The notes below the pieces were generated by a model. That model ran no database searches. It was not told the origin of the DNA and saw only the letters and a program-made list of their open reading frames with translations. This document shows, one piece after another, positions 5,721 through 41,314 of a DNA stretch of 41,628 nt (positions are counted from its first letter, which is position 1; each line of letters starts with the position of its first letter). This stretch comes from a virus. A program made the position numbers and the translations under genes. Location: positions 1 to 41,628 of the IMG/VR virus record IMGVR_UViG_3300035698_022581; one strand, 5' to 3'.

Positions 5721-5885
5721 TTATTTTTTAGGAAGCATCTTGGCCATGCCAGTTCCACAAACTTTACATTTTCCCTTAAGGAAAATCATAGTTCTTCCCT
5801 TTGATTTTTTGACTAACTTTTTAGCATTAATCATAGGTTGGATCTTTTTACATCGCACACAGAATGCCTTTATTATTGTTGCCAT
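5721..5885 (-). CDS. DUF5679-like mini zinc ribbon, 54 aa
   Basis: A short gene found by hand: ATG at 5885, stop TAA at 5721-5723, 54 codons. The protein begins MATIIKAFCVRCKK and carries a second pair in GKCKVCGTGMAKM, giving a CxxC...CxxC zinc ribbon, and ends KMLPKK. Small proteins of the form 'xCVKCK...CPVCGTKM' are widespread in phage and archaeal genomes under the name DUF5679, and this one fits in length and spacing. The function is unknown, with nucleic-acid or protein binding being the usual guess. It starts 38 bases before the end of the upstream HNH gene and stops 4 bases before the Vsr-like gene begins. Normal codon use and the four cysteines argue that it is real. Confidence 0.75.
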   Translation of the reverse strand: MATIIKAFCVRCKKIQPMINAKKLVKKSKGRTMIFLKGKCKVCGTGMAKMLPKK

Positions 5886-6246
5886 AAATTTTAGTTTTAT
5901 TTAAATTATATTTTCTGAAACCTTTTTTTATATCATATTTCATGTGACAAGAACGACATAAAGAAATATAGTCTTCCTTTTTCCTTCTATATTTATGATC
6001 TTTATTTGCCCATTCCAAATTTTTAGTTGAACCACAAAATATACAAATTATTAGCTTTCCTTTATTTCTACGGATCCAAGCATGAACTCCAGCATAACTA
6101 ACTTTATCACCTTTCCAATTAGAATTCTTCTTGCCTATTTTAGAAATCCCCATCAGTAATTTTGTTGCTTTACTTCTCTTAATTCCTTTCAATAATTTTC
6201 CATAAGTATTTCCTTTTTTAAAATAGCCTTTATGTTTTTTAATCAT
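5848..6246 (-). CDS. HNH endonuclease, free-standing homing type
   Basis: 132 aa. The N-terminal 50 residues are Lys- and Gly-rich with NUMOD-like stretches (KGNTYGKLLKG, ISKIGKKNSNWKGD). The NSNWKG phrase is typical of phage HNH homing nucleases. Residues about 65-105 carry the zinc and catalytic core: CIFCGSTKNLEWANKDHKYRR and then LCRSCH, with both CxxC pairs intact and a Asn/His cluster. Such genes cut alleles that lack them and spread into phage genomes. It is inserted between the propeller-like tail protein and the small zinc-ribbon gene, and its last 38 bases overlap the latter. All key cysteines are present, so it may be active. Confidence 0.85.
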   Translation of the reverse strand: MIKKHKGYFKKGNTYGKLLKGIKRSKATKLLMGISKIGKKNSNWKGDKVSYAGVHAWIRRNKGKLIICIFCGSTKNLEWANKDHKYRRKKEDYISLCRSCHMKYDIKKGFRKYNLNKTKIYGNNNKGILCAM

Positions 6247-18400: not shown

Positions 18401-21338
18401 TCTTTAGAAACTGAGAAATAGATCTCTTTATATCATCCGCAGTTCCAGTAAAGGATTCCAAAAGTTCTATGACTGAATTTGGTAGAGATTTTGTTCCAGT
18501 ATTCTCATTTTTAAATATCATTAAAGAAATCTTATCAGAAGGACTTAGATAAGCTTTTAATTTATCAGCTGTTAATATTCTATCCATCTGAACTAAAGTA
18601 TTTTTGTATTTAATATACTCAGTAGGGGAATATTTTTTCAAAAAATAAAGACTTACAGCATCTTCAAAGTATGCTTTAAAGTCTCTTGGATCTTCTATGA
18701 TTATTCCTTGTTTTGATTTTATCTTCGTAATCTTGGACATTCCATGACGTGAAGGTAAACCACCGAATGCAGTATAACCAGCAGCCGCTTTATCTGCTTG
18801 CCACCACTGCACAGGCAAAGTATTATAAACATCTTTTGATTTGGTAATAGGCTTAAACTTACTATCTATACTCGCAACTTTCTTCATCATGCCTTTAAAT
18901 TCATATGCAGTCATTCCTTTCCAGTCTTTTGTTTTAAATACATCAAACTTTATATTCTTATAAATTGCATCTAATAACGAAGATGATTGTTTAGTCTGAA
19001 CAGGTATTCCAATTTCCCATCTCTTAGTCATGAATTTAGCTTTAGATGCTTGGCCCTTAGCTGCTTTTTCTAATTCTTTCATTAGTTCTTTAACAGACAT
19101 TTTATCCCCCTTAAACCTAACTGTATCTAAAAGGCGAAGTCCTAAACCACCATGGCCATCTTTTATTCCTTTAACTATATCAGCATACGATATATTCTTT
19201 CTTACTAATAAAGTACTCTCAGAATAATAAGCTTTAGCATTACCAAGATACTTAGTTAATTGGCCACTAACTTGACCATACCAATCTTTAAGTAATCCCT
19301 CTGTTCCTCTCTGTCCTAGTTTTGTAACTACAAACTGTTTACTTAAAGTATTAAAACGATTCTCACCTTTTCCTCCCAGATTAAAAACTACCTTATATCC
19401 TTGGGGCAAATTAATAGTAGCTTTACTTTCCATTAAAATCTGTTTAGCTTCTTTAAGGCTATCCTTAAGTAGATTAACAGACTTCTCAATTTTATTTATA
19501 GCCTTCGGTGTAAATTCTGGACGAGTCAATAATCTTCCTTTCCAAGTTAAACCTTCTCCAAGTTTTCTCATTTGACTAAGTTCTTTATTGATTTGTATTG
19601 TAGTCTTTTGAGAAAGAGATTGAACAACATTTCTTTCTAATGAATTTAAGCCAGCTAAACTATCATCAATATTCTTTCTAACTAAGTACTCTCTTAATCG
19701 AGCAGTATGATAATTCTTTACTACTTTAGTAAGTCCAGCTTCTAAAACCTTAGGACCCTGAGTGGCAAGCTTTTTAATTAAATCAAAACCATCACCACCA
19801 AATTGATTTAAGACTTCCCATACTAAATTATCAGTAGGCATTTTCCCCTCCAACATTAAGCCACGTAATGAATCTTGAAAAGCTTTTAATTTTTCTTTAC
19901 CAACTTTAGTTTTTAGATTCTCAATAAAAACTTTGGAGAAATACCCACTTCTCCATAACTCTCCTTCTTGTGCAAGTTTCTCTATTTTAGCTAAAATCCT
20001 AGGATCAAGACTATCTAAAACTTTTAAACTCATTACTGACTTACGACTATTGATAAGTGAAGGGAACATCTCTTTAAACTTTCCCCCCGGAACAGCATCA
20101 AAGGAAGCAAAACTAATAAGATCTTCTGCTAAATCACTAGACCTAGAATACTCATTAGCAAACTTATATAAATCTTTTCTAGTCTTTAATTGATTGTATA
20201 CCTTGGGGGAAGTAAACTTAAAAAGAGACTTAGATAACGAACCAATCCTTGTCCAGAGTATTGCTGAAGGTTCTAAATATCCCCATCCAACAAAATCAAA
20301 GACAAGTAATCCAAACTTTCCTTCAGGTGTCTTCTTCAATTCTGTCCTATAAGCTGGCTTGATTAAATTACGTGGGGACACAAAGCTTTGAGTAGGCGAC
20401 AAAATCTTATCTCCAACATACAGAATAGTATCAGTTTTAAAATTATTTAACTCTAAAAATTCTTGCTCAACATTTTTAAATTCAGCTGGTAAATAATCTC
20501 CAGCTGTAGTTCGTTCACGGACCAGAACATTCTGATAAGATCTTGGATGACGATAGCTAGCGTAAAGAGTAGAAAGATATCCACCAGTTTTTAGATCTAC
20601 CCACTTAGGCAAATTCTTAAAAGTAAACCTTTCACCTGGGGCTATCTTTTGAAGATCAGGAACTCTAGCTGAATCATATAGATTAAAGAAATTAAAGACA
20701 TTAAGATTCCATAACTTACTTAAATAATTATCTTCCTTAAATGGATACTCACCTAATGTAGTTAAAGTCTCCACATCTTTTCTTTCCATTCCAAATAAAT
20801 CCCCAGTACTCTCTAATGCAGTTTCATAAAAAGTAGAACCAACATCAAACAAAGCAGAGATTGCTGTTTGAGATGCTGGAAGAGTTCTGTCCCACATCCA
20901 TGACATTCCTTTAAATGCTCCCTTAGCCATCTCATATCCTATAGGGGTAACAAGAATAGGAAGATCTTGTTTAAATCCACCCTCCATAAAATATCTTTTA
21001 AAACCAGAAGGAAAAACAATCTCTTGAGCAGCTTTTAATTTAACTTTACCAGCAATTTCCTCCTGAGTTTTTCTAAATTTTAAGAAGAAACCTTTCTCAT
21101 CTTCTTTCTTTATTTCCCAGTTATGATTCTTTAGATAAAAAGTAAGACCATTCATCACATTACGAGCTACATACTTAAAGGTTCTAGCTTCAAGATAGGC
21201 ATCTTGAAATTCAGATACACGAGCTTCAGATTTTAGTTCTACTTTAAGTAGAGCTCTATGATAGTCCTCGATAGCTTGTCCTTCATCAATTAGAAAATGA
21301 GCTAGAGTACCTTGCTTTTTTAGGATCACCCAAAGCAA
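9465..21338 (-). CDS. giant virion protein, about 3957 aa, polyvalent/internal type
   Basis: An uninterrupted frame of 3957 codons, 28% of the window. Its only available start in frame is a TTG at 21338, directly after TGA and TAG stops in that frame, so the true N-terminus is probably supplied by the 43-codon frame just upstream. Around residues 2230-2270 it carries LRPGWHLNNMLGDSLRG, and near 2478-2510 VKRYIFDYSHLSRVERTF plus FWSFSRF. Both resemble conserved segments of very large phage polyvalent or internal proteins. Residues about 1520-1575 are a Lys-rich coiled coil. Residues about 2900-3850 hold many divergent short units built around FxxxHPELxxY with tryptophan/aromatic spacing. It is probably packaged in or ejected from the virion, perhaps taking the tape-measure or ejection role. 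No enzyme motif was found. Confidence 0.8.
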   Translation of the reverse strand: MLWVILKKQGTLAHFLIDEGQAIEDYHRALLKVELKSEARVSEFQDAYLEARTFKYVARNVMNGLTFYLKNHNWEIKKEDEKGFFLKFRKTQEEIAGKVKLKAAQEIVFPSGFKRYFMEGGFKQDLPILVTPIGYEMAKGAFKGMSWMWDRTLPASQTAISALFDVGSTFYETALESTGDLFGMERKDVETLTTLGEYPFKEDNYLSKLWNLNVFNFFNLYDSARVPDLQKIAPGERFTFKNLPKWVDLKTGGYLSTLYASYRHPRSYQNVLVRERTTAGDYLPAEFKNVEQEFLELNNFKTDTILYVGDKILSPTQSFVSPRNLIKPAYRTELKKTPEGKFGLLVFDFVGWGYLEPSAILWTRIGSLSKSLFKFTSPKVYNQLKTRKDLYKFANEYSRSSDLAEDLISFASFDAVPGGKFKEMFPSLINSRKSVMSLKVLDSLDPRILAKIEKLAQEGELWRSGYFSKVFIENLKTKVGKEKLKAFQDSLRGLMLEGKMPTDNLVWEVLNQFGGDGFDLIKKLATQGPKVLEAGLTKVVKNYHTARLREYLVRKNIDDSLAGLNSLERNVVQSLSQKTTIQINKELSQMRKLGEGLTWKGRLLTRPEFTPKAINKIEKSVNLLKDSLKEAKQILMESKATINLPQGYKVVFNLGGKGENRFNTLSKQFVVTKLGQRGTEGLLKDWYGQVSGQLTKYLGNAKAYYSESTLLVRKNISYADIVKGIKDGHGGLGLRLLDTVRFKGDKMSVKELMKELEKAAKGQASKAKFMTKRWEIGIPVQTKQSSSLLDAIYKNIKFDVFKTKDWKGMTAYEFKGMMKKVASIDSKFKPITKSKDVYNTLPVQWWQADKAAAGYTAFGGLPSRHGMSKITKIKSKQGIIIEDPRDFKAYFEDAVSLYFLKKYSPTEYIKYKNTLVQMDRILTADKLKAYLSPSDKISLMIFKNENTGTKSLPNSVIELLESFTGTADDIKRSISQFLKKRMKLEKEQIMLAEKSRIIKDFKVHGIKDPEREWQLYRRRWNFDLTINPLEEEFAAVKRLLESYPILGFKKASNLIPAKYVTRLEKDYYPKRSMNKEEAEAFFYSIQQGGRQRFSEIISEKKSFPQYIEEIKNIKADVSVAQANNFLFCPSASKFQTDKNIKLAISKYGNRANFIIPGDYKNAEYAAKKLNSYLPQGRVKIIKKTFKKETGSEFILEQSQFLDDIKNLNQMEEFTLGGIIPQSKLAEFWSQVPAEIPGIKVYKKGFQGATLPGIEAQARQRYLKNLERKYGTKRAKQIMIDKELGMIERSEHFKPKKSFTMNYDYDAIDDIQKNLNVVLRDVKTPAAKEFKNWIKYEELAELEKNHRGMVMDIFEVLSYKKQLLNSMFSSKEFYLQKNKIIFSTIGKYGMPLDSTIAIGLTKGKVLGNPKALTKERIKQYIYDLANKNKLQKAQWPKDLNFDQASNHIKRAFYLDKYNTREQFRKAFKQIIKPTKEGKVDTALNKLIKDLGLEKKGIAYSKLDKDFSIQVKDLLDLEQRGDLLGTIKSELEIAKKNLNLLKKSQKRLIKLKKSGKKYLYLEKKAVVIHGERLQTAKKKIEGLGDATSYKSITKYEPISSVIPEGFQTRSEFTSKLLSSENVMTKVKSAERVNIDDAIKSLAKDLQNQRLYIPKIEGLEKVFELFNFKSEYINNLDDFIDAIWDISHKTPSTKAIGLVGEWRTNFIVNSRGPHNLRYNLIDLKKHKLKIAKIEPKSIPEITKFIETQQVSNVKFPVSIITDINENASVKALKKIGADMIVLVDVKIPKEISSKFKSVVKAQSRNFFPVGSKFATKEEIALTNRIRDAFFKKKKIVFIGENANRVRLRTLSLFPPEEYATYKGLFTLKRIPYIRTKKYPGYTWEHRKGNKPLTITPEEEELLTRILPKKNWDDLVGYLEKPSVPRLVKEIPAEQTKRVVANFLTDLEHSVKISPDYGLFWINKTRKAIGNKVKHVKVELPTMLTYSDIENLGLLKNAGVSLYIEKVIGMRKAALKQLNLEGISPKLISSARAKQIHYTYVKGRKGINQIYEKIEGLKTTVYKEMKSDLNSFFKNFKQVMPVSSIDRGSLRKSTFEWLNSAYITKGKRDLITEWKKTAKKITREYQINLEKVLINEFGTLNKKTAQHILARKMSKFDDYIKLAEEMKLGFGGAKKLSFHTIGNKLRAIINSGFEWVAERKLGTPLSMGEKGMIFSLQALDKTIKTAGIMASLPFRTLRTMWIWGVLFLRPGWHLNNMLGDSLRGTMASHQLKYFIDSARQFNLLTLSYLKFLGRDIRALFYPLYKNFIPSKLRKFWLFKDPLKYSKEKMLKALKITVSPNTVANKKKLMTILKNYELTFNPKALRLLNTKGTFGWAPKKVFKNLTSPQYWARKYKIPMSSVEQAAHMGMLTALEDPIYASKLWKLMTETGIKSALKRRASLLKLDIVLYSGINEKMRRLLLLDSLMKNKAMSLAKASMKVKRYIFDYSHLSRVERTFRIICPFWSFSRFSVELYTKMLLEMGPKFYWAGKLFMEALDEVSKDLPEQFKNRVPIPYTGTFAYLPFGIIDYWRMMANPKEELMRFIDNPAQMPFGLGMDPIAVTVTRMLTDKKWYETSRILKDHTGWTDEEIKKDEAKFGAPNLKMLIDFPTFLSTYFPPAALAGIIFPSLFKIDRATLEDEFSVIESTTLRSLFKWFGFNIIKVEPWMKFGSLYEKTAPHFRPFLIEQTKKENPLIYEAWENFIAKSKMLNLLNARSADEKALAMHELEKFEVVSKYYELEDKHKGDGTRWIEAMAKKGNMGPKALLQEHFNYDINDSSWRRQQTAKYEKNQAKIYMKQVKDKYSATISPTTSAVMDVMNIPHPAEGFKEAFNDIVFDGYGNVKFDTLEEAIQASEELAKKFNLDNLIPQEVKERMREETLEWKLRSWEEKEKKNEEDSAYYLARSVAQSYLPDDLDKLSSEVQTKYWNKHDDYLKRKEYYQRYKEEQPEYIQEFGKVMEVYAAKISDIYKVSQQDPYNKNYYAEFEKLPKWIQNVNFVYHPENKEIIPFKAELFRKSQIDREQHLKGYKSNERDAFYSSDNFLAVKGRAAILKSDPKAVEFNSLGQELSRKVDISYSSGSLVGYYTLFRTMPEWWKNKYWEFKKDSVKSGWMTQNDFDMSKKWFEFSSLLENARIKEQKDLEKGVISNLSEEIWKNPKWNDVKTWREKNEMNKGYKLYMRLQFQYDKKLEAGESMNYYQFIKDLSGEAKLYYIRHHLDSIKYIDFMAKYNSLLFGKDFVEGEEDKANKFFWSSENAVARNAYFESHPNEEYYMKERGRIFAMAKDAGEYYDLILSASQKFQDIYFRKHPLARLYLAEVQKYFKAITLDTENKAKGIPSSKAKEVFKSKDFQDALKIWDKAEKGVYDYYTGWFEISELVDKKGVDKWGEIYEGYIKSHPSFREQLEIRQPDKYNILYPFKVEMGKLPANEVQKFFLSDKNTKAREMMEADDPGITAYYKFWYNLSELADKGHWQRYFRYYYSDQNKVNRFRHWKKHPEAKETFLMWMKYQLMPATNWEERKKKANYLDSNSDLKNFFQKDATVKDLELRNKIDQYFKIRQSAKEDGTSLDYFYDWKKLGIVSNKFLENNPEVLEFLQTHTKQYGDEQKGFLQELADTYNGLELFAKKDEFIDKHPELLEYLTRYSPSGVRKVIELQRQYFNLGIDDWDTKDKFLSDHPELKNYWEVKSYPDIFFTNSETKKKYLDIDKKVLEYYNKIKSSSWAEAEQLRKNLPEFYTNLGKGKISEWFVSRIYREAMSAWSDLLSRNKIGGIAFFRQLPEWLRNKYIETHPQYSLLSQYSLERFLEEPLRLDLLSKSKLRTHLAEKTHYKYDSNVPYHLKDKVRKEFIRAGIWESRANWKRSDWQKYYLKKGMLKNKLIALDLYYNPLLRKELERLSKIWLTRGRIVPFKRRITPIVVELID

Positions 21339-23196: not shown

Positions 23197-23748
23197 TTAA
23201 TTATTTTTATTGTCTTCTAAAAATATATTTAATTGTTCTCCTGTAAAATTTCTTGTACCATAGATTTTATGAAACTCTGCATGTGCTCTCTTGCTCAAGG
23301 TTATTCCATTATCTACAGCAAATCTTAATCCAGGATAGTTAGCGAAACTTAAAATATGATGCGGATGTAGATAGTCTCCTTTTGTTCTATATTTTTGGCA
23401 AACCCAATTGTCCCTAGCAAATACTGCCTCTCTCCATAAACAAAATTCTATACTATCTCTAAGTTTTTTATTTTGAGGAGTAATTCCCCCTTTCCAATTC
23501 CAATGTTTACTCCCAGAACAAGAAAGATGATTCTTCCCCTTATCACTTCTAATAACTTTATTTGAACCTCTATGAAATTTCCATCTGCCACTTAAACGTC
23601 CTTTTAGTTTAATTTCTTCGGATAATTTCCAACGTTTTCCTTTTGCATTCTGATTCCCTTTACGTGCTTCACTCATTTTAGAGGTATCTTTTACTTTCCA
23701 ATGCTTCCCTTTTGCATTTTGATTTCCTCTAGCTGCTTTACCCATCAT
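23197..23748 (-). CDS. HNH-family endonuclease with lost zinc cysteines and an ATG-less 5' extension
   Basis: 183 aa from the first ATG. The N-terminal half is made of NUMOD-like repeats: GNQNAKGKHWKV and GNQNAKGKRWKL, each with a charged spacer. The C-terminal half matches the phage HNH pattern RDNWVCQK...HPHHILSFANYPGLRFAVDNGITLSKRAHAEFHK. The His pair and the DNGITL strand are intact. The second cysteine of the first CxxC is Tyr (CQKY), and the usual CKxCH is SKRAH, so the zinc site is missing. The same frame is open upstream to TGA at 23875-23877 and encodes another repeat pair (SKHWKLSKEV, TGKHWKVKDT) without any ATG. Either translation starts at a rare codon such as ATT 23859, or the gene is decaying. 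It is a probable mobile insertion among head genes. Confidence 0.75.
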   Translation of the reverse strand: MMGKAARGNQNAKGKHWKVKDTSKMSEARKGNQNAKGKRWKLSEEIKLKGRLSGRWKFHRGSNKVIRSDKGKNHLSCSGSKHWNWKGGITPQNKKLRDSIEFCLWREAVFARDNWVCQKYRTKGDYLHPHHILSFANYPGLRFAVDNGITLSKRAHAEFHKIYGTRNFTGEQLNIFLEDNKNN

Positions 23749-25537: not shown

Positions 25538-26527
25538 CTAAGCTTCGGTTAAGCCACTAGCCATGGACTGCTTTCTAGCACAACTTGAGGTAAAGGCAAG
25601 ATAACCTTTATAAGTTGCTTGGAGATAATCCTTACCTTGATCTGCAATTGATTTCCAACCTTGGGTTGAGAATTGTTTTAAAATTCTCGCACTTAAGAAT
25701 GACTCTGTTAATCCGAACAAAAGCCCAGATCCACAGAAAGGATCACTCACGATTGGAATACCCTTGAAAGAAAAGGCACGAAAACCACCTTCCAGAACTT
25801 TACTACCTAAGGTTAATCTGACACCTGAGTTAGTAGCAGATACTACTTTAGAATAAGTATCTTCATACTTTTGCATAACTCCATCCGAACAAACAATGAG
25901 AGACATAGGAACACCATCACCATAGCGTTTAGTTTTGACATAGAGATCATTTAAGATCGACCAGTCTAAAACTCCGCCAGTAGTGTTAGTGACTCCTTGC
26001 CACCAAGAGTTTGTTCCTTTAGCAATTCCACCAATAGTTCCAGTTGCAGCGACTAGTGCTTGTAAGCCCATGATATTCTTTCCAGATTCACCCGTATCAG
26101 CACCATACAAATCAGTTGCTAGATCTTTTCTTAACGTCTTAGAAGCATTCTTCATTTTGATTGCAGCGATATCGTAGATTCTGGCTTTCCCAGTATTCTC
26201 TGAAACAGTAAGGTTAGGGATTTTAATGGTTGAATGATATTGCTTCCAGCTATACTCAGCTAGAGTCAAAACATCTTCATCATCAGCAGCCCAGGTATCA
26301 CTAGAATCATAAGATCCATGAGAACCAGTTGCTTGTGCGGCCTCTTGATACTCAAGAGGTTCTGCAATCTTGCGTCCACCACTAGTAGTTTGAGCCATTC
26401 CCCAACTGCCTTCTTTCGCTATCTTAAAGATACGATGAAGGAGAGGAGAATATTTAAAGATCTGATCGACAACGACAGGAGAATAATACTTTTCTGTTGC
26501 AGCGTTTAGTTCAGTAATTAAGGACAT
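25538..26527 (-). CDS. major capsid protein, HK97-type
   Basis: About 329 aa from ATG 26527 (MSLITELNAATEKYYSPVVV). The frame also allows a TTG at 26533, but that codon is inside a hairpin and is not needed. The features are those of HK97-fold capsid proteins: an N-terminal helical arm, an acidic loop region (DSSDTWAADDEDVLTLAEYS) leading into the E-loop-like strand KQYHSTIKIPNLTVSENTG, a spine helix (KARIYDIAAIKMKNASKTLRKDL), a central domain with GVLDWSILNDLYVKTKRYGD and SLIVCSDGVMQKYE, and a C-terminal strand near FRAFSFKGIPIVSDPFCG. It follows the acidic scaffold-like gene and is followed by a terminator, the usual order. I am confident of the role, less of the exact subfamily. Confidence 0.85.
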   Translation of the reverse strand: MSLITELNAATEKYYSPVVVDQIFKYSPLLHRIFKIAKEGSWGMAQTTSGGRKIAEPLEYQEAAQATGSHGSYDSSDTWAADDEDVLTLAEYSWKQYHSTIKIPNLTVSENTGKARIYDIAAIKMKNASKTLRKDLATDLYGADTGESGKNIMGLQALVAATGTIGGIAKGTNSWWQGVTNTTGGVLDWSILNDLYVKTKRYGDGVPMSLIVCSDGVMQKYEDTYSKVVSATNSGVRLTLGSKVLEGGFRAFSFKGIPIVSDPFCGSGLLFGLTESFLSARILKQFSTQGWKSIADQGKDYLQATYKGYLAFTSSCARKQSMASGLTEA

Positions 26528-26531
26528 AAAC

Positions 26532-26547
26532 AAGACTATAAAGTCTT
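26532..26547 (-). promoter_or_regulatory. short hairpin just 5' of the capsid start
   Basis: AAGACT-TTAT-AGTCTT on the coding strand (6-bp perfect arms) lies 4 bases before the capsid ATG. It could stabilise the 5' end of a processed capsid mRNA or affect its translation start. It is too short and lacks a T-run, so it is not a terminator. Confidence 0.4.
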
Positions 26548-27629: not shown

Positions 27630-28547
27630 TTATGTTTTCAGAATCTTTCCTCCTCTCTTAAACTGCCACGTTGGCTTAAGAGGAGATTGATCCTTTAAAT
27701 AATCATCCTGATGCTTAACTTCAATGGGGTCCATTTTTTTCTTTCCAAGAAAGATAGCTTTTGCTTTAGATGAATCAAAACATTTTTTAGCTCTCCATAA
27801 ATAAAATCCTAAAACAAATTTATCTCCAAATTTTCTTTCTACTAACCTGTCAAAGTATCTCCCATTAAAATATTTCCCCAAAAAAGTAATATCTAAAAAA
27901 TCTAGTTCTCGTCTATGAATTAAGCAGGGTTGTAAATATTCTAGTGCTATCATGATACCAGGTTGCCCAGTAGGAGTTCCAATTCCGGGAGGACTCCAGT
28001 ATTTACTTTTAATTTTCATCCATGAAACTCTATCACGTCTTTCAGAAGTTCCCTCTGTAGTCATAGCAGCTTCTGCTTTTTCTTTTAAAAATTTATTAAG
28101 AGCTTTAGACCCTTTAACTAATGACTGATAACCTTTAACAGTCCCACGTACTTTATCTTCAGAAGTTCCAGTCCATGGTAATCTGAATGTAGTAAAACCA
28201 AACCAAACTGGAGCACCTTTTTTTATAACACGTATGTCATAATGGAATTTTCCTTTAGGTAAATGAATAATGGGGTCTTCATGATTCTTTAATGCCATCT
28301 TAACAACCGAGTTTATTTTTGTCAAGGCCTCTTTACCTTTTCCATAACTTCCTTCATCAAACCAGCCATGTAACTGTACAGTAAATTTACCAGGAATAAA
28401 ATCTATCCATTTTTCATGAACATCTAAAGGCCCATGAGCCTTCTTTAAAGCACGGCGGAGAAACTCAGCTTTAGTAGGAACCTTTTTAGTTCCTTTATAA
28501 GTTTTAAAATGAGTTCCCTTTTTTGGTTTTACTGTTTCTAGTTTCAT
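27630..28547 (-). CDS. LigD 3'-phosphoesterase-like protein
   Basis: 305 aa. Residues about 55-125 resemble the 3'-phosphoesterase domain of bacterial LigD. KFTVQLH (Gln58, His60) and HYDIRV (His102, Asp104, Arg106) are followed by GAPVWFGFTTFRLP, paralleling the LigD order FVxQxH...LHYDFRLExxGxLxSWAxPKGP. About 40 extra residues separate the two motifs. Residues about 190-265 include GIGTPTGQPGIMIALE and a later strand-rich FNGRYFDRLV that resemble the rest of that fold. LigD phosphoesterases clean 3'-phosphate or ribonucleotide ends before ligation. Neighbours are a nucleotidyltransferase (44-base overlap) and, two genes upstream, the portal-ligase fusion. The fold assignment is a motif-level judgement, and catalysis is not proven. 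Confidence 0.5.
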   Translation of the reverse strand: MKLETVKPKKGTHFKTYKGTKKVPTKAEFLRRALKKAHGPLDVHEKWIDFIPGKFTVQLHGWFDEGSYGKGKEALTKINSVVKMALKNHEDPIIHLPKGKFHYDIRVIKKGAPVWFGFTTFRLPWTGTSEDKVRGTVKGYQSLVKGSKALNKFLKEKAEAAMTTEGTSERRDRVSWMKIKSKYWSPPGIGTPTGQPGIMIALEYLQPCLIHRRELDFLDITFLGKYFNGRYFDRLVERKFGDKFVLGFYLWRAKKCFDSSKAKAIFLGKKKMDPIEVKHQDDYLKDQSPLKPTWQFKRGGKILKT

Positions 28548-28839
28548 TATATAAACCTTTAGTTCCCAACGCTCCTAAATCTTTTGTATCTACTGTAAGA
28601 TATATTTTAGAAGTGGGGCGATTTCCTTTTAAGATAGAGAAATGAACATCCTTTTTATATGGGCCAAGAGCTTCTTCAACTAAAGGGATATCTTTCTGAT
28701 TCTTAACACAAATATCTATATCATGATCTGATCTACCACTTGTTACTAATCCACCAACTACAAAAATCTTATCCTTGTTTCCTTTAAGAGCAGCAAGTTT
28801 TCTAGTTACCATTGTCAATAGAAGGATTTTTTTGTTCAT
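28504..28839 (-). CDS. Pol beta-superfamily nucleotidyltransferase, minimal type
   Basis: 111 aa. The signature is in residues 27-44: FVVGGLVTSGRSDHDIDICV, with the GG pair at 29-30, GRSD at 35-38 and the metal-binding acids Asp40 and Asp42. This is the core of Pol beta-type nucleotidyltransferases (hG[GS]...GxSDxDhD). The fragment covers little more than the core fold (VEEALGPYKKDVHFSI, then KIYLTVDTKDLG), so it is a minimal form. Such proteins transfer nucleotides to nucleic acid ends, proteins or antibiotics. The partner here is unknown. It overlaps the phosphoesterase-like gene by 44 bases and follows the basic 210-aa protein by one base, so it belongs to the same tight block. Confidence 0.75.
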   Translation of the reverse strand: MNKKILLLTMVTRKLAALKGNKDKIFVVGGLVTSGRSDHDIDICVKNQKDIPLVEEALGPYKKDVHFSILKGNRPTSKIYLTVDTKDLGALGTKGLYNETRNSKTKKGNSF

Positions 28840-28840
28840 A

Positions 28841-29488
28841 CTATTTCTTACGAAAAGTTAAATGTTTCCCATACCAATTATCAAGTTTATCTGCAACATA
28901 TTTGTTACTTCCTGTGCCTCTAGTTTGATTCTCTAATTTAGATAATTGACTAACCATATAATTAGAAGCAGCGACATAATTCCCTTTCTTTAAGTAATCA
29001 TCAATAGTTTTAATAGCCTTATTATAATTTGTTCTTCCCATTATAGTAGATGGTAAATCAACACTGAATTTTTTCAAGAGACCTTTACGTGCTTTAACAG
29101 CTTCTGCATTAGACTTTATTGTTTTAAGTTTTTCCCCTAGAATTTTAATAGTAGGCATAATGAAATCACTTTTCTTTATAAGATCAGATGTATCTTTAAT
29201 AATTTTATCTCCAAGTTTAACAACAGGAGATTTTTTTACTTTCTGCAATAAAGCTTTAGCAGCATCTTTTCTAAAAGTTGCAGCAACAGGAGCAGAGGTT
29301 TTTAAATTCTCCCACTTTTTGGTATCTTTATTGAAACCATATGCATCTTTTGATGTAGGTTTTAACCCAATCTTCCGAGCCGAAAGAATACTCTTATGAA
29401 GATTTTTATCAAAGACTTTAGTTTTTTTTCCATCGCGTACACCTGCGATGTAATAGTTTGTGTAATTAGCCATAGAGTTTTTTAACAT
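28841..29488 (-). CDS. basic protein of unknown function in the head operon
   Basis: 215 aa from ATG 29488, or 210 aa from ATG 29473 (MANYTNYYIAGVRDGKKTKV). Both starts lie near the stop of the portal-ligase gene. It is rich in Lys (for example KNLHKSILSARKIGLKP, KARKGLLKKFSVDL) and mostly helical, with no cysteine or membrane segment. A C-terminal Gly-Thr-Gly linker (QTRGTGSNKY) precedes a short helix, and the protein ends GKHLTFRKK. The high positive charge suggests DNA binding or a structural role near packaged DNA. I do not recognise a family. Confidence 0.6.
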   Translation of the reverse strand: MLKNSMANYTNYYIAGVRDGKKTKVFDKNLHKSILSARKIGLKPTSKDAYGFNKDTKKWENLKTSAPVAATFRKDAAKALLQKVKKSPVVKLGDKIIKDTSDLIKKSDFIMPTIKILGEKLKTIKSNAEAVKARKGLLKKFSVDLPSTIMGRTNYNKAIKTIDDYLKKGNYVAASNYMVSQLSKLENQTRGTGSNKYVADKLDNWYGKHLTFRKK

Positions 29489-32400
29489 TACTAATTAGTT
29501 TTTTATTTTCATTCCTTTTCCAAGCATTATGTTTAGGCAACCACTCAGCCCAGATAGCTTCAGTGCCACCATGTGCTAAATAATGTTCCTTTACAAATGC
29601 TAAGGTATCAGGACTTGATATTCCTTTTTGTTTTAATGAAGGATGGGCCCCTATTTTTCCTTTAACATCCTTAGGTCTTGGAGCAAACCAACCTAAAGCA
29701 CCATCCGGTCGTAAAGTAAAGTGATCAACCATAACTCTAATCACATCACCAGGCTTAGCTTTTACTTCTGCTTGTACATAAGTTTGCCCCATATAAGTTC
29801 CATCTCTTAATGCACAGTGAAAGACAGGCAAACCATTCTTAGTCTTCTCAACAGCTATAATCTTAACATCTAAATCAGCAGTCTTCTTGCAATTATGAAC
29901 TATAACTGCGGAAGCAATCTCAGAACAATTTCCTTTTAATTCAAAATCATAAACATATACTGAACGTTTTTTATAAGGAATAATAGATCTAATTCTTCCC
30001 CAATCTTTCTTATATTTTTCATTTAAAATTCTAATTCTCCAATAAGTAAAAGATTTATTCTTATACTTAGCATTATAAAAACTCAAACTAAAAGGCAATC
30101 CATAACTTCTTCCGAGTAAATAAAATCTCATTATTAACGGATTATCAATAGAACATCCTTTATCTCCTATCCACCAACCATCAAATAATGATTGGAATTC
30201 TCCTTTAGTTAAATAATCAATAAACTGGGGCAAAGTTTTAGTATGACCAATATGCCAACCATTTCTTCTGCTAAGCGAGAAATTCTTACTCAGCCATTCT
30301 GCAAATCCCATATCAGAAATTGTCAATACATAACAATTATTTTTCATTTTAGTAATCTTACCCTCTTTAATTCCTAAAGATTTAATAGCAATCTGTTGAG
30401 CTTTCTTCAAAAGAGAAAGATTTTTGTTAGAAATAAACACAGACTTATTCCAAGAACCTTCTGCTAGAATTAATCCAACTAACCACCAAAAACTCTTAGA
30501 CAATTGAATTTCTTTTACATATCCTGGAACTCTAGAAAATTTAATATTCTTTAGACTTCCATTTTGTCTTTGATAAATAGGAAGATTTAAAAAGTCATTA
30601 GCTTTTCCAATATAATTTTCTCTTAATGGTCCTTTTTTATACTTTAATTTTCCCAATTCTATCCATTCCTTTCTAGACTTAATTAAATGATCTGAAGTAA
30701 ACTTAATAGGAAAAGTTCCATAGGTTTTCAATTCCATAATCTTATCAGAAGAAGTTATTTTTCTTTTCATTATGTTTTTAATTCCTACAAATTCCCCCTT
30801 CCCATTTAAAATTTTATCAAAAGATTTAATTCTTTTTGCTTGAACCATTCCACGATCAGTAAAAATATACGTATCTCCATGAGCACATTTGTACATAGCA
30901 TGAGTGGCCCAGTAAGCAGCATCTATGTCTCTGATAACTACTCCCTCATTAGAGGTAACTAACTTAGAAGCTTTTCCTAACTGATCTCTAGATGCATTAG
31001 TAGTTTTAACACGGCGGATTTTTCCTTTAGTCTGACCTGGTTTAATCTTAAGGTTAAGTAATCTATATCTATCTATAAAAGGTTTATCAGCTAAAGATTT
31101 TCCATTAAGATAAAGTATATCCCAAGTTATATATTCAATAGCTTTCTTTTCTTCATCAGTAACCTTAGTTTTAGCTACAAAGCCTGTGACATTCTGATGC
31201 TTAGCTCCCTTTAAAGAAAGTTCCCCATCTAACAATACATCTTGAGTTTTAAATAAACTTTTAATTGAGTCTGCAACTGCAGTCAACTTCTTAGCAGGAA
31301 TTTCATTCCCAGTATCCGTGAAGAACTTCACCTTATCTCCACTCTTCCAACAGAATGTTCTTATACCATCTATTTTTTCAGAAACATTATAAGTTCCTGG
31401 AGGAATAACTTCTTTTAATCTAGCTGCAGAAAATATCTCATAAGGTTGAAATGCTTTCTTCTCAGGTTTAGCAGACGGGGGAATCTTAAACGGGGCCAAA
31501 GATACTGGCTTTAAATCCCCTGAATATGGCACACCAGTATGTTCAACTCTCAAAGGGATAGGAGCCTTCACAAAATTCTTAACACCAGGTTTTCTTTCCC
31601 ACTCAACAGGTTCTTCAAACTTATGGAACTCAAATAAATATCCATACAAAGTTTTAGTACCCCACCATTTCTTTCGTTGCTTATCGGAAATCAAATGGTA
31701 CTTTTCTGTTTCAGCAAATCGTTTTGGCCCCATCTTAAATACAACACGAGGAACTAAAATCCCATAAGCATATTTAGGTCCAAGTAGTATTTGTGGTTTA
31801 TCTATAATGTCAAATAAACGAGACTTAATTATCAATAGTTTTTTACCAGAATAGATATCTGTAGCATGAGGATCAACTAAATACAAACCAGGATACTTAC
31901 TTATAAACTTTCCAACAGCTTCTTTCTTTATTCCCATTTTAGAAATCTCAATTAACTTTTCTAATATCTGTTTGAACTTAGAAGTCTTAGGAGCTTCTTC
32001 TTCAGGTGTAGCTTTAGTAACTTCTTCTTTAACAGGTACTTCTTCTTTAGGAATTTCAGCTTTTGGAGCCTCAGCTTCAGGAACTTTTTCTTTAACTTCC
32101 TCTGGCTTCGCAGGTTCAGGTTGAGCTTCGGAAACAATTTCCGGTTTTGGTTTAGGCTTTTCAAATGGAACATTAGGAGCATTTTTCGCCCTAGTCCCAT
32201 CGATATAAACCTTTTCCTCTATATCTGACATAAGAAATCTACTCTTCTCAACATCAGCTTCTTCTACTTTAACTACAGCTTTACCAGTTCCCGCCATTAT
32301 AATTTCTGGATTATAACCTAAAGCTGGAGAAAGAACCCTATTAATTTTTTGATCAAGAGTTACAATAGGTTGTTTTAATTTTTCAGCTAAATCTTTTTGC

Positions 32401-33854
32401 TGAAGCATCTCATCTTCAAGTTCATTTTTTAGTCTATCAGGATTAGGATAACCTAATTCCTTTAATGCTTGTTCTCTAGAAATTAATCCATCACTTCTTT
32501 TCCTTAAGACAAAAGTTTGTTCTATCATAGTTCGAGATGCAGAAGAAGGAAGTAATTCAACAACAGATTCAAAAGATCCTTCTTTTAAATCTGGAGAAGA
32601 AAGAGAATCAAACTCTTTTAAAAATTGTAGTCTGTGACTCTGAATATATTTCAAATAGTAATCACACATATTTTGTAAAGCTCCTTTAATTTGATTTGAA
32701 TAGAAAACAAATTGACGAAGCGATGCTCTTATCACTGCTTCAACTGCTCCCTTCTCTCTAACTGAACCAACATTAGTTGTTGAACCAGTCCCAAACATTT
32801 GTAAGATTTGACGCAAGAGATTTTGCTGATGAATCAATACATACTCAGGCAATCGAGCAGGTTGCTTATAATTAATATCACCTATCTCACTTTTCCCAAT
32901 CATGATATTCTTACCTCCTTCCTGTAACTGAGCTTTAAGTTTATCAATATCTATTCCAGCTTCTGTATCATAAACTAATAAGGCTCTAGCTTGAGCATGT
33001 GCAGCATGATCAATTGATAGAGTAATCTTTTTATACTTCTCCATTAAAGGAATTGCCTTACTCATTAAAGGTAAAGTATAAAACTGAGCTGGACTTAAAG
33101 ATTCATTTACTTTAAAAAAAGGATAGCTTCCTGGATCAGGAAAACTATCTTTAAACAAAACTTCTCCAGTTGGAACCTGAAGAATTCTTTGGTTCAAATC
33201 TTTAAACCATAAATCTCTTATCTCAATAGTTCTAGCATCTGGTAGCTTTAATATCTCAGAATAAACAGCAGAGTTAACTAATGAATTAGTAGAAGGATTT
33301 GGAATAGAACTAAGTAAAGTTCCTTTAGTTGGATAAGTAGTTCTTAAAAGAAATGGCTGATCTGGAATGTTTGATATCTGAGGATCACCAGGAATAAAAT
33401 CTCTAGAAGGCAAACTATAAAATCTTCCTTTTACTGGATCTATATAAAAAATAGAATAGGAATGATTAATCATCTCGAACAATGAAGCTAAACCAAAAGA
33501 TGCAAAGTCTTTAAACATCCTTTCAAGCTTTTGTGAAAGTTCATTAGCAAATTCATATGCTCCATCAATTTTCTTCAAAGCTCCAGTCGGAACTACCTTA
33601 ACAGATATGATTGTATTCCCCATCTCTTGAAACATTACCTGAAGAGGAATCAAACATGAATTAAAAGCAGAAGGTTTAACTGATTCCATCGAGCTTATAA
33701 AATCCCCATAAGTAAATCTACCTTGATTATAAGAAGCAATATCTTGATTCTTACCCCAGAAGAAGTAAGAAGCATTTCTTTCAGTTGCTGTCAAGAAGTT
33801 ATCATGAACTTCCCGAGCTGCACTGATTTGACTAGATAAATCTTTTATCTCCAT
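29466..33854 (-). CDS. portal protein fused to ATP-dependent DNA ligase, with intein
   Basis: 1462 aa precursor in a single frame. Residues 1-530 are portal-like: long helices, a DxEAGIDIDKLKAQLQEG segment, LLRQILQMFGTGSTTNVGSV, and a position directly after TerL. Residues about 563-626 are a Pro/Glu/Lys linker. Residues about 638-758 resemble a PUA/ASCH-like module (YAYGILVPRVVF, KQRKKWW). Residues about 770 onward are a compact ATP-dependent ligase: motif I EKIDGIR with adenylation Lys827, motif III LLDGEL (Glu878), motif IV EGVVIRD (Glu970), motif V split as Lys989 / Cys1322-Lys1323. A C-terminal OB-like part (GDVIRVMVDHFTLRPDGALG) follows. After splicing the product would be about 1130 aa. 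Portals form dodecamers, so up to 12 ligases could ring the vertex. The fusion is highly unusual. Confidence 0.85.
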   Translation of the reverse strand: MEIKDLSSQISAAREVHDNFLTATERNASYFFWGKNQDIASYNQGRFTYGDFISSMESVKPSAFNSCLIPLQVMFQEMGNTIISVKVVPTGALKKIDGAYEFANELSQKLERMFKDFASFGLASLFEMINHSYSIFYIDPVKGRFYSLPSRDFIPGDPQISNIPDQPFLLRTTYPTKGTLLSSIPNPSTNSLVNSAVYSEILKLPDARTIEIRDLWFKDLNQRILQVPTGEVLFKDSFPDPGSYPFFKVNESLSPAQFYTLPLMSKAIPLMEKYKKITLSIDHAAHAQARALLVYDTEAGIDIDKLKAQLQEGGKNIMIGKSEIGDINYKQPARLPEYVLIHQQNLLRQILQMFGTGSTTNVGSVREKGAVEAVIRASLRQFVFYSNQIKGALQNMCDYYLKYIQSHRLQFLKEFDSLSSPDLKEGSFESVVELLPSSASRTMIEQTFVLRKRSDGLISREQALKELGYPNPDRLKNELEDEMLQQKDLAEKLKQPIVTLDQKINRVLSPALGYNPEIIMAGTGKAVVKVEEADVEKSRFLMSDIEEKVYIDGTRAKNAPNVPFEKPKPKPEIVSEAQPEPAKPEEVKEKVPEAEAPKAEIPKEEVPVKEEVTKATPEEEAPKTSKFKQILEKLIEISKMGIKKEAVGKFISKYPGLYLVDPHATDIYSGKKLLIIKSRLFDIIDKPQILLGPKYAYGILVPRVVFKMGPKRFAETEKYHLISDKQRKKWWGTKTLYGYLFEFHKFEEPVEWERKPGVKNFVKAPIPLRVEHTGVPYSGDLKPVSLAPFKIPPSAKPEKKAFQPYEIFSAARLKEVIPPGTYNVSEKIDGIRTFCWKSGDKVKFFTDTGNEIPAKKLTAVADSIKSLFKTQDVLLDGELSLKGAKHQNVTGFVAKTKVTDEEKKAIEYITWDILYLNGKSLADKPFIDRYRLLNLKIKPGQTKGKIRRVKTTNASRDQLGKASKLVTSNEGVVIRDIDAAYWATHAMYKCAHGDTYIFTDRGMVQAKRIKSFDKILNGKGEFVGIKNIMKRKITSSDKIMELKTYGTFPIKFTSDHLIKSRKEWIELGKLKYKKGPLRENYIGKANDFLNLPIYQRQNGSLKNIKFSRVPGYVKEIQLSKSFWWLVGLILAEGSWNKSVFISNKNLSLLKKAQQIAIKSLGIKEGKITKMKNNCYVLTISDMGFAEWLSKNFSLSRRNGWHIGHTKTLPQFIDYLTKGEFQSLFDGWWIGDKGCSIDNPLIMRFYLLGRSYGLPFSLSFYNAKYKNKSFTYWRIRILNEKYKKDWGRIRSIIPYKKRSVYVYDFELKGNCSEIASAVIVHNCKKTADLDVKIIAVEKTKNGLPVFHCALRDGTYMGQTYVQAEVKAKPGDVIRVMVDHFTLRPDGALGWFAPRPKDVKGKIGAHPSLKQKGISSPDTLAFVKEHYLAHGGTEAIWAEWLPKHNAWKRNENKKLISNVKKLYG
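29892..30887 (-). other. intein with LAGLIDADG homing endonuclease, 332 aa
   Basis: Residues 990-1321 of the fusion protein. Block A begins at Cys1 (CAHGDTYIFTDRG). Block B is FTSDH with Thr64 and His67. The endonuclease motifs are LVGLILAEGS (Glu143 acidic) and LFDGWWIGDKG (Asp242). Block F is VYVYDFELKG, and block G ends AVIVHN. The first downstream extein residue is Cys, as required for standard class 1 splicing. All splicing residues (Cys1, TxxH, His331, Asn332, Cys+1) are present, so splicing should work. The insertion divides ligase motif V (Lys989-Cys-Lys1323), a conserved active-site position typical of inteins. Confidence 0.95.
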
Positions 33855-33859
33855 AAATT

Positions 33860-35482
33860 TTAAATGGTCTTAATTAAATTCCATTCTTCGGAATCTTTCC
33901 CTTGTCTTAATGCTTTTACAAAATCAGGATCTTCCAAAAAATCATTCTCTTTTTTTGGCTTGTCCTTTTTGATCTCTTTCTTTTCGATCTTGATTGGCAT
34001 TAAGATAGAAGCTCCTATTGAAAAGAATGATAGAGCGAAAGCCAAATGATCTTCGCCTATCTTTTTATATCTCCTTTTAAAAGTACCTTTAACCTCAGTC
34101 TCTTCTGGGATTATATTACCCAGATGCTTTTTAAATGTATCCTGCATTGACGACTTTTTATTTATTTTTAAGATTCCTTTTTCTAAAGCTTCGAACATAT
34201 CATCTAATATCATAGTTCTATCAGCACTAACTATTCCATTCTTCCAATCTACTTCTATCGGTTTAGATCCCTTTAAATTTTTATCTCTTTCATTAGCTAG
34301 AAGAAATTTAGTTCTGCCATACTGCTTCTGAAATATTCTCCCAAGATGTTTATTTGGTAAAGCATCCATCACAATTAAATCTGGTTTTAAAGTAGCAATC
34401 ATATCATTAATATCTGCGGGCAATTCTGTCTCACCAACATAATCTATAATCCTAAATGATTTTCCAGCAAGGCCGCACGTAATGTAAAACTTATCTCCCT
34501 GATCAATTCCCATTATTCTTTTCCCTTCCTTTAAAAGAGAATCAGTTAAAAAGGTTTTAAACTTAGTCTTAATATTAATTCCACTTCCTTCATACGGTTC
34601 ACCTAAAACAAAACGATAAAAATTCTCTATCTTCTTATTTTTAAAATCATCCAGTATATCTTCAGCAGTAAACCAAGGAGCCATTAAACGATTGAAAGAA
34701 TAACCAACAACATCTCTATCTGGATATGTAGCTTTCCAAAAACCTTTTCTTCTATCATCATCAGATAGGGGACGATCACAACTCCTGCAAACAAATTCCT
34801 TTCTCACTTTATCAATTGAATCTGGCCATACTAATCTCTGAACATGACTACAAAATGGACAAGTAACATACCAATAATTCTGAGTAGAATTCTCAAACTC
34901 TTTTGCAATTCCGTAATTTGGAATAGTAGGATTTCCAACTTTCCAATTAATACGTAACGAATCAGAACCCTTCAATCTCTCAGTATACATTTCCTTAATA
35001 CTCTGTTCTTGATAATCCCATTCATCACCAATCCAGATATCAATCGAAACACTCAAAGCTCTTGACTTGGATCTCGATCCCCTAAAGTAAAAGAACGAAT
35101 CAGCTATCTTCTTTAACTGAATAGAATAAACCTTGTCTTCTTTTCTAACTCCCTCAGCATATCTGTTAAGAGCAGAACCTAGAACAATGGGATCAAATTT
35201 TGTTCTAACAAAATCCTTAACATCATCATCTGTTGGTAAAGTATAAAGGGTAGAAACTCGTCTCTTTAAAGTATCAGATAAATAAAGTATCTTAGAAAGT
35301 AATGCTAAAGAAACTCCTATCTGAGAACATTTCTTAACAACAATATCTTTATGAAAATCACTAAACAAAGCTTTCGTACAAGCATGCTCTATAAATTCAA
35401 ATGGATTTCCACTATCAGTTTCAACTCTTGTATCTTGTAACCATTTGAAAATCTCAGTATCTTTTTTCTTAATGGTTAACAT
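33860..35482 (-). CDS. terL: terminase large subunit, GpA-like
   Basis: 540 aa, ATP-driven DNA packaging motor and nuclease. The P-loop region is a divergent VVKKCSQIGVSLAL (residues 48-61), as in GpA-family terminases. Walker B is IDIWIGDEWDY with Asp153-Glu154. A zinc ribbon (Cys208/Cys211 and Cys232/Cys235) sits between the ATPase and nuclease domains, also characteristic of that family. The nuclease metal site is visible as GIDQGD (Asp327), VMDALPN (Asp373) and the late DHLAFALSF segment. It is 5 bases upstream of the portal fusion and overlaps the membrane-protein gene by 7. No small-subunit gene is identified, although the 97-aa gene is a positional candidate. Confidence 0.93.
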   Translation of the reverse strand: MLTIKKKDTEIFKWLQDTRVETDSGNPFEFIEHACTKALFSDFHKDIVVKKCSQIGVSLALLSKILYLSDTLKRRVSTLYTLPTDDDVKDFVRTKFDPIVLGSALNRYAEGVRKEDKVYSIQLKKIADSFFYFRGSRSKSRALSVSIDIWIGDEWDYQEQSIKEMYTERLKGSDSLRINWKVGNPTIPNYGIAKEFENSTQNYWYVTCPFCSHVQRLVWPDSIDKVRKEFVCRSCDRPLSDDDRRKGFWKATYPDRDVVGYSFNRLMAPWFTAEDILDDFKNKKIENFYRFVLGEPYEGSGINIKTKFKTFLTDSLLKEGKRIMGIDQGDKFYITCGLAGKSFRIIDYVGETELPADINDMIATLKPDLIVMDALPNKHLGRIFQKQYGRTKFLLANERDKNLKGSKPIEVDWKNGIVSADRTMILDDMFEALEKGILKINKKSSMQDTFKKHLGNIIPEETEVKGTFKRRYKKIGEDHLAFALSFFSIGASILMPIKIEKKEIKKDKPKKENDFLEDPDFVKALRQGKDSEEWNLIKTI

Positions 35483-38994: not shown

Positions 38995-40224
38995 TTATTT
39001 CAAGCTTAATCGTTTTCCAAATGGCGGAACTATGTCAGAAGTAATTACCCATATAACTTCGAACGGCAAATTTTTTGTTGTAGGGAAATCTCCATAGCCA
39101 TCTGTGAAATATATAAGACAATCGACTGGTTGTCTTAGTTTTGTTTTAATCCATTTAAAGACTGGGCGAAAATCTGTTCCGCCGCCACCACTTAACTTAA
39201 TCTTTTTCAACTCTTCTTCTTCGTGGTCTTTAAGATTATAAACATTATGAATTTCTGAATCACAACCTAAAATTATCATTTCAACTGCACCTCTATAATC
39301 AACATAGATTCCATAGAGTTCGGAAATAATTTCCGAGTATTCTTTATCGGATATTGAACCAGAAGTATCGACTCCTACAACACATCTCAATCCAGAAACC
39401 TTAGTTGAAGCAGGAAAATACCAGGGAAGCCAGCGTTTACTTGGCCTACTCCAAGTTCTTTCTTTAATTAGACGAGCAAATCTTCCATGCAACCAGCTGT
39501 TCCAAGTAATCTTATGTGCTCTTAACTTGTTTAAAGCTCTATCAATTTCCCCTGGAAGTAATCCTTGCATCTTAACTGCATTAACTCTATCAGTCCAAGC
39601 ATCTTTAGCTGCTTGCATTTTCTCACTAGTTATTTCTTCTTTACTATTACCTATTTGTTTACTCTTTCCTTTTGATTTATTAGGATCACCTTTAGCCTGA
39701 CTCAAAATTAAATCAGCTCTAAACTTAATCTTTTCTTGAGGAATAGCTTTTCTTAGTTCATAGTAAATTTGTTCTGTTGTTTTCTGGTCTATACTTTTTA
39801 TTTCTATTGTCTTCTTATTTATTTTATATTGCCAACTATGCATATAATCTGGTCGACAAGGGCCATCAGGAAGATCAGCTCTATAATTTTGATCATTCAA
39901 AAGTATATCATTTATCTTTAAATCTGCTGCTATATTAAATAGATCACGATCAAAATCTCTATACCTAGACGGATGAAGAAATACCAAATGTAGTATCTCA
40001 TGCATCAGTACACCTTTTAATTGAGGAAAAGGCAAAGCATCAACCCATTTAGAATTGACAAATAATTCTCCTAATTGATTTACTCCCATAGTAGGACAAC
40101 GTTTATCATCCACAACTGGGACAAGATATGAAGCTAGCTGACCATAGAATGGTTGATCAACTAGCATTTGAATCTTTGCCTTTATAAATCTATCGCTATT
40201 CATCGTCTTCACTAAAGTAAACAC
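38995..40224 (-). CDS. HExxH metallopeptidase-like plus VWA protein (DUF2201-type)
   Basis: 409 aa, or 402 aa if translation starts at ATG 40203 (MNSDRFIKAKIQ), which overlaps the MoxR stop in ATGAATAG and is a plausible coupled start. Residues about 70-110 hold HEILH (75-79) followed by NIAADLKINDILL. Residues about 280-380 form a VWA domain with the metal-ion site DTSGS (286-290), Thr350-Asp351 in GGGGTDF and Asp375 in FTDGYGDF. A charged Lys/Ser-rich linker (residues 178-205) separates the halves. Known relatives occur beside MoxR ATPases and act as partners in metal-dependent protein maturation or remodelling. It sits between the ATPase and the two unknown coiled-coil genes. Confidence 0.9.
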   Translation of the reverse strand: MFTLVKTMNSDRFIKAKIQMLVDQPFYGQLASYLVPVVDDKRCPTMGVNQLGELFVNSKWVDALPFPQLKGVLMHEILHLVFLHPSRYRDFDRDLFNIAADLKINDILLNDQNYRADLPDGPCRPDYMHSWQYKINKKTIEIKSIDQKTTEQIYYELRKAIPQEKIKFRADLILSQAKGDPNKSKGKSKQIGNSKEEITSEKMQAAKDAWTDRVNAVKMQGLLPGEIDRALNKLRAHKITWNSWLHGRFARLIKERTWSRPSKRWLPWYFPASTKVSGLRCVVGVDTSGSISDKEYSEIISELYGIYVDYRGAVEMIILGCDSEIHNVYNLKDHEEEELKKIKLSGGGGTDFRPVFKWIKTKLRQPVDCLIYFTDGYGDFPTTKNLPFEVIWVITSDIVPPFGKRLSLK

Positions 40225-41314
40225 CTAAACTTTCTATTGAACTAGCAATACCTGGTCGCTCTAACAATTTAGGTAATCTTCTTTTACCTTTAGAATTTCC
40301 AACAAGCATCTTTAAAAATGCTGTTTGAAACTCTAAGTCTAGACAAGTTAAAACTCCTTCGACCTGTTCAGCTTTTAATTTATTATTGTTCCACCTATCT
40401 TGTAAGGTAGCAATAATAGCATAGAGTAATGATATCTTTTCAGGCTCTTCACATAACTTTTTGATGGAAGCTTTCGGTGTCTTTAAAATATCCTCTATGT
40501 TTAACTTAGATGCTAATGCTATAAATCCTATCAGTTTTGCTCCAGCTCCATTACCAACTGCTGAACAAACAAATGCTCTTAACTCAGGCGTTTTTATCTT
40601 TGGATTAGCATTCATAAACTCAGAAATAGATTCCCACATACACGGAAAAGGATTAGATTTTAACTCAAGCATCTTTTCATCATATGGACTTGGAAATAAT
40701 TCATTCGGATAATTAAGTAAGAAAGCAATAAGCATAGGATTTCCCCCAATCCTGGAGAAATAATCTGTTATCTCTTTTGCTTCTGGAACAATCTGTAAAT
40801 GATGAAACCTTCTAAGTAATGCTAGTCTTAACCTACCAACATTACTAAAATCAGTTTCCTCATTACTTGCAGCTATTCTCCAGAACTTTAATTTACCATT
40901 CTCATCTACGACAGGAGGCAAATTAGAATAGCGTCCTTTAAGTATATACATATACATACTCTTACGAACAATTTCATCGGCCAAATTCATTTCATCGAAG
41001 AAGATTATTCCCTGTCCTTCTCTTGGTAATTCTGCTCCAGGAATAAACACAGTTGTATTATCTTTAATCTCAGGCATTCCTCTTAAATCTGGGGCGTCAA
41101 ATTGTGATAAAGGAATAACTTTACAAGTAAAGATATCCTTTCCAAACTTATCTTCTGAATACTCAAGGTTTTGTCGTTTGGCTTCAGCTTGTGCGAACTG
41201 TCTAATGATTGAAGACTTAGCTGTACTAGGTTTTCCCCATAGATACAGTGGCTTATTCAACTTGAAATAATAAGGGAGCAACGTATTAAGTTGCTTTAAA
41301 TTAACTTGATACAT
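40196..41314 (-). CDS. MoxR-type AAA+ ATPase
   Basis: 372 aa. Walker A is GKPSTAKSS (residues 27-35), in which the usual second Gly (GxxxxGKS) is Ala; Lys33 and Ser34 remain. Walker B is GIIFFDEMN with Asp107-Glu108. MoxR-type features are present: FDAPDLRGMPEI (72-83), a sensor-like AASNEETDFSN near residue 160 and an arginine segment RLRLALLRRFHHLQI. The C-terminal third is helical. MoxR ATPases remodel or activate partner proteins, usually with a VWA protein from the next gene, exactly as here (28-base overlap). The P-loop change may lower but need not abolish ATP use. Confidence 0.9.
   Translation of the reverse strand: MYQVNLKQLNTLLPYYFKLNKPLYLWGKPSTAKSSIIRQFAQAEAKRQNLEYSEDKFGKDIFTCKVIPLSQFDAPDLRGMPEIKDNTTVFIPGAELPREGQGIIFFDEMNLADEIVRKSMYMYILKGRYSNLPPVVDENGKLKFWRIAASNEETDFSNVGRLRLALLRRFHHLQIVPEAKEITDYFSRIGGNPMLIAFLLNYPNELFPSPYDEKMLELKSNPFPCMWESISEFMNANPKIKTPELRAFVCSAVGNGAGAKLIGFIALASKLNIEDILKTPKASIKKLCEEPEKISLLYAIIATLQDRWNNNKLKAEQVEGVLTCLDLEFQTAFLKMLVGNSKGKRRLPKLLERPGIASSIESLGVYFSEDDE

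Follow-up and report, generated by a model that had tools for sequence, protein, structure and literature searches.

The portal of a tailed phage is usually viewed as a channel for DNA and a sensor of packaging, and the ligases of phages as soluble enzymes of replication. Phage T4 Alt is an enzyme carried inside the head as a separate protein and injected. The part of PMC9503650 drawn on here, in which Alt is also treated, describes fusions of portal or MuF proteins to 2H phosphoesterases and ADP-ribosyltransferases and reads them as head-packaged. The locus analyzed here lies in a 41.6-kb IMG/VR virus record, considered over its whole length and hereafter called the window, in which a portal part and an ATP-dependent DNA ligase are encoded as one chain. 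A search of the open-access literature found no report of a portal-ligase fusion, and an earlier report elsewhere is possible.

A single open frame encoding portal and ligase

An earlier note on this DNA had placed the fusion at 29466-33854, directly after the gene coding for the terminase large subunit (TerL). These coordinates are correct, with the gene encoded on the minus strand: its 1462 codons, intein included, run without interruption from 33854 down to 29466, and stop codons occur throughout the plus strand of the same interval. The fusion starts 5 bases past the stop of TerL (33860..35482, minus strand; PF05876, E=6.7e-23; phrog_675, E=8.6e-88), which adjoins it upstream. Downstream of the fusion come three genes for proteins of 215, 111 and 305 aa, then those for a zinc-ribbon protein, a scaffold-like protein rich in Glu and Lys, and the major capsid protein (25538..26533, minus strand; phrog_9953, E=1.6e-35), leaving the fusion as the sole portal-sized gene between TerL and capsid. 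The same fusion was found directly behind TerL in four further assemblies (L002, L003, L050 and L066), all of which keep it between TerL and scaffold/capsid. The claim that a portal and an ATP-dependent DNA ligase share one frame is confirmed for the window: the fusion is real and open over its full length.

The ligase adenylation domain occupies residues 801-989 (30888..31454, minus strand). Pfam DNA_ligase_A_M (PF01068) matches residues 823-983 (E=1.2e-18), and PDB DNA ligases match the ligase part with a best E of about 2e-6. Lys827, Glu878 and Glu970, given among the ligase motifs in the earlier note, are all where it placed them, with EKIDGIR starting at 826, DVLLDGEL at 872 and EGVVIRD at 970; a WDILY motif is also in place. 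Motif V (YK/CKK...DLDVK) had been described as split, and what interrupts it after Lys989 is a 332-aa intein with a DOD (LAGLIDADG-like) endonuclease (residues 990-1321, 29892..30887, minus strand). The intein begins with Cys990 as its Cys1, contains a Block-B-like TSDH of the TxxH type and the DOD motif LVGLILAEGS, and ends in His-Asn followed by the +1 residue Cys1322, while its match to Pfam Intein_splicing (E=0.003) is below the curated cut-off. L002 carries an intein 79% identical at the same site; L003, L050 and L066 are free of it and read YKMKK, YKLKY and YKVKK, respectively, through an uninterrupted motif V. The C-extein (residues 1322-1462, 29469..29891, minus strand) contains, according to alignments, the rest of motif V, an OB-like domain and a C-terminal tail. 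The OB fold is suggested by weak Foldseek matches obtained from a poor model, and the sequence of this part is conserved across members.

Recognition of the portal part (residues 1-555, 32190..33854, minus strand) relies on a homologue and on a structural comparison. Residues 1-560 of the window protein gave no direct sequence match in Pfam, PHROG or PDB, and direct searches of these collections with the portal sequences of the three closest members gave none either. Against PDB, no match was returned for a five-member profile or for L066 alone, and hhalign comparisons with portals and putative portals of other phages stayed at background level. The 1157-aa ORF of L066, retrieved by the window-family profile with E=5.6e-30, matches PHROG portal family 156 at residues 223-408 (E=2.1e-10) and, on the same chain, PHROG ATP-dependent ligase family 114 (E=2.3e-18). 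Solely by way of L066, therefore, sequence profiles indicate homology of the window protein to known portals, and residues 1-530, which the earlier note had taken to be a portal, do have a portal match along this route.

Structural comparison tentatively points the same way. In a Foldseek search of PDB with the AlphaFold model of the portal part, all 33 best matches were phage portals (best E=3e-5), including those of SPP1, T7, KHP30, N4, 80alpha, PaP3 and others, and most of the named top matches in BFVD were portals as well (best E=1.7e-8). The model itself is of low confidence (pLDDT 40) and was used for Foldseek only; both half models are poor (pLDDT range 36-40) because their alignments had just 3-5 rows. 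The TM-scores to portals were low, and the result is therefore a signal of local structure rather than a good superposition. The model of the ligase part, just as poor, served as a control and retrieved no portal but mostly weak OB-fold matches and one DNA ligase, which indicates that a bad model does not by itself produce a portal signal.

Between the portal and the ligase lie a Pro/Glu-rich linker (residues 556-624, 31983..32189, minus strand) and a conserved extra domain (residues 625-800, 31455..31982, minus strand) that is always joined to the ligase. The linker evolves fast: among the three close members (window, L002 and L003) its identity is 21-39% and its length varies, and the frame is never lost in any member. 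Residues 625-800 are 81-89% identical among the close members and have no Pfam match. That the ligase might be translated on its own was weighed and rejected, no start codon near the linker being common to all three close members.

Homologous fusions and selection

The homologous fusions span a wide range of divergence. L002 (IMG/VR 3300033145_002388; 1445 aa with its intein) has a portal 73% identical to that of the window, and L003 (IMG/VR 3300031227_000040; 1126 aa) one that is 61% identical. L050 (contig JAGMCN010000046.1, from a MAG labelled candidate division WOR-3 bacterium) has a ligase 47% identical; its fusion gene is broken by the contig end, and another contig from this MAG, with an exact overlap of 150 bases, carries the portal start and a TerL 36% identical to that of the window. 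L066 (IMG/VR 3300022871_000130) is 39% identical to the first member of the profile. Divergence of portal and ligase rises in parallel across the members, as expected of a single ancestral fusion. Beyond the group, relatives of TerL at 22-31% identity are followed by plain genes of portal size, about 470-650 aa, without ligase motif, for which the name portal rests on position and size. Two genome scans yielded the one WOR-3-binned relative, and 147 genomes of the phylum of that relative contained no further fusion. Searches with tblastn of 50,697 phage records and of 72,556 plasmids returned ordinary ligases and unrelated inteins and no portal-ligase fusion.

An assembly junction between the two parts, which the earlier note had named as a refuting result, is not what the comparison of assemblies (rather than reads) indicates, for the junction recurs in five independent ones. 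That a chimera or an annotation artefact joins two neighboring genes can be dismissed as extremely improbable: all sequences are metagenome assemblies, but the junction is found in five of them at portal identities of 24-74%, the linker frame is kept in every member and no internal start is shared.

Nucleotidyltransferase motifs I-V with the nucleotidyl Lys are present in all five members. L050 deviates at two secondary positions, where KIDGLL and LLQGEL replace KIDGIR and LLDGEL, with loss of the Arg of motif I and the Asp of motif III; its nucleotidyl Lys and Glu residues remain. L066, the most divergent member, has canonical ligase motifs throughout. In comparisons of the three close members, dN/dS is lowest for residues 625-800 (0.05-0.08), followed by the adenylation domain (0.07-0.12), the C-terminal part (0.14-0.18) and the portal (0.18-0.27); with synonymous sites near saturation, only this ranking is usable. 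Purifying selection is stronger on the ligase part than on the portal, and the sequences argue that the ligase is a maintained function.

Several other features of the window and of related contigs were recorded. The 111-aa protein (28504..28839, minus strand) has a GG-x9-DIDI nucleotidyltransferase-like motif and no significant family match. The 305-aa protein (27630..28547, minus strand) has an FHYD[IL]R motif and no hmmscan match; by hhalign it scored 21 against LigD_N (PF13298), aligned at HYDLR only, which about equals the best of 150 background ORFs, itself a LigD_N protein. Both proteins hold the same position after the fusion in four of the five members (window, L002, L003 and L050) and are absent there in L066. 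In the late region, a 3957-aa ORF (9465-21338, minus strand) without Pfam or NCBIfam match has relatives in the L002 and L003 contigs and, at about 27% identity, in the WOR-3-binned phage; it is possibly a giant virion or polyvalent protein. Small HNH homing endonuclease-like ORFs lie between late genes (5848-6246 and 23197-23748, minus strand), the latter with a weak HNH_2 match (E=0.07) below the cut-off. At 38995-41314 (minus strand), a MoxR-like ATPase adjoins a metallopeptidase-vWA protein (DUF2201, E=6e-32), a pair that is kept in the WOR-3-binned phage and is of a kind described in some jumbo phages (PMC7824862). That related phage (L050, L061-L063) consists of two contigs (52 and 38 kb) within the MAG, and WOR-3 is a possible host group for it. 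Upstream of the packaging genes, two related phage contigs encode uracil-DNA glycosylases (L045:15423-16016 and L048:16851-17402; PF03167, E=7e-11 and 2e-27, respectively), L045 also having RecA and L048 an RtcB RNA ligase.

Proposed role and alternatives

We give a probability of roughly one half to a reading in which the ligases of this genuine and evolutionarily stable fusion work inside the head. The product would assemble as a ring at the portal vertex, with up to about 12 ligase modules hanging inside the capsid near the DNA channel on flexible linkers, where they would close nicks in the phage's own DNA, or join its ends, during packaging or on its way out of the head. The tethered ligase would be inside the head, on packaged DNA, because portal C-termini point into the head, an orientation taken from other portals; according to the part of PMC4992974 used here, the C-terminal domains of the P22 portal putatively form an inward 15-nm barrel. 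A pre-adenylated ligase (enzyme-AMP) would need no additional ATP to seal a single nick per copy, and splicing of the intein would have to precede ligase activity in the phage of the window and in its nearest relative. Points against this reading are the limited ATP supply in a closed head, the residues lost from motifs I and III in L050, the missing direct portal match of the window sequence and the poor structure models. Nick sealing or circularization during packaging or ejection, as proposed in the earlier note, would be the most economical use of the tethered ligase.

A tentative alternative, clearly less probable, is that the fusion serves to load the ligase into the head: the linker would be cut during maturation, and the free ligase would be ejected with the genome to circularize or repair incoming DNA, or to undo host-made nicks, early in infection. 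Such a route is in keeping with the flexible and fast-evolving linker and with the view, in the part of PMC9503650 considered, that injection is the fate of enzymes joined to a MuF or portal domain. However, a scan of genes from TerL to capsid identified no head protease, and the fusion has no known cleavage site or sign of release.

It is unlikely that the enzyme is a replicative ligase fused by convenience, acting in the cytoplasm on replicating phage DNA within unassembled fusion chains or outside procapsids, its attachment to the portal being incidental or serving to coordinate packaging with nick-free DNA. The fusion does provide the only PF01068 match in the contigs of the three close members (window, L002 and L003), but these contigs are possibly incomplete and the count covers ligases of the ATP-dependent type. 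Moreover, a late structural gene is an odd site for a replication enzyme, and the fusion is kept in five out of five members.

Rather more doubtful is a repair station borne by the portal, in which the in-head ligase, the nucleotidyltransferase-like protein and the HYDLR (LigD phosphoesterase-like) protein of the same operon would clean, fill and seal breaks in the genome on its way through the portal, with intein splicing gating the activity in some phages. The least likely alternative for the role of the domain is that the ligase fold has lost its enzymatic activity and become a DNA- or nucleotide-binding portal module, such as a clamp or a packaging sensor; the altered motifs of L050 would fit it, but none of the five members lacks the nucleotidyl Lys or the Glu residues, L066 is canonical despite being the most divergent, the insertion of an intein into motif V is a mark of strong active-site conservation and dN/dS is very low.

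Under the preferred reading of ligases working inside the head, a conserved chain of portal and ligase would put DNA sealing at the vertex of genome entry and exit. The fusion also gives a handle, for example through a K827A substitution, on nicking and repair of packaged phage genomes at the portal.

Comparison with known systems

The portal part resembles tailed-phage portals (PHROG 156; in PDB, SPP1 gp6, T7 gp8 and N4) in gene position, size and, tentatively, fold signature, and differs from them by a very divergent sequence and by about 500 extra residues that include the ligase. The ligase part shares motifs I, III, IIIa, IV and V and a putatively OB-like C-terminal part with ATP-dependent DNA ligases (PF01068, PHROG 114). 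Known ligases are normally soluble, whereas that of the fusion sits behind a portal and a conserved 170-aa domain and is split by an intein in two members. With inteins carrying a DOD homing endonuclease, the window intein has in common an N-terminal Cys, TxxH, a LAGLIDADG-like motif, the His-Asn/Cys junction and insertion into an active-site motif; it is set apart by its host protein, the portal-ligase fusion, and by a weak Pfam match. Phage T4 Alt offers a precedent for a head-internal enzyme as proposed here, but Alt is separate and the enzyme of the fusion is part of the portal chain. The portal and MuF fusions are alike in that a head protein carries an enzyme on its own chain, as in the window, and is presumed to package it in the head. 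The fused enzymes covered by the part of PMC9503650 drawn on here act on nucleotides, RNA or host proteins, and none among them is a DNA ligase. The fusion of a structural head protein to an enzyme is thus known, and what appears new, in the records and papers searched, is a DNA ligase as that enzyme, by which a DNA-repair enzyme joins the list of those that phages attach to their head proteins.
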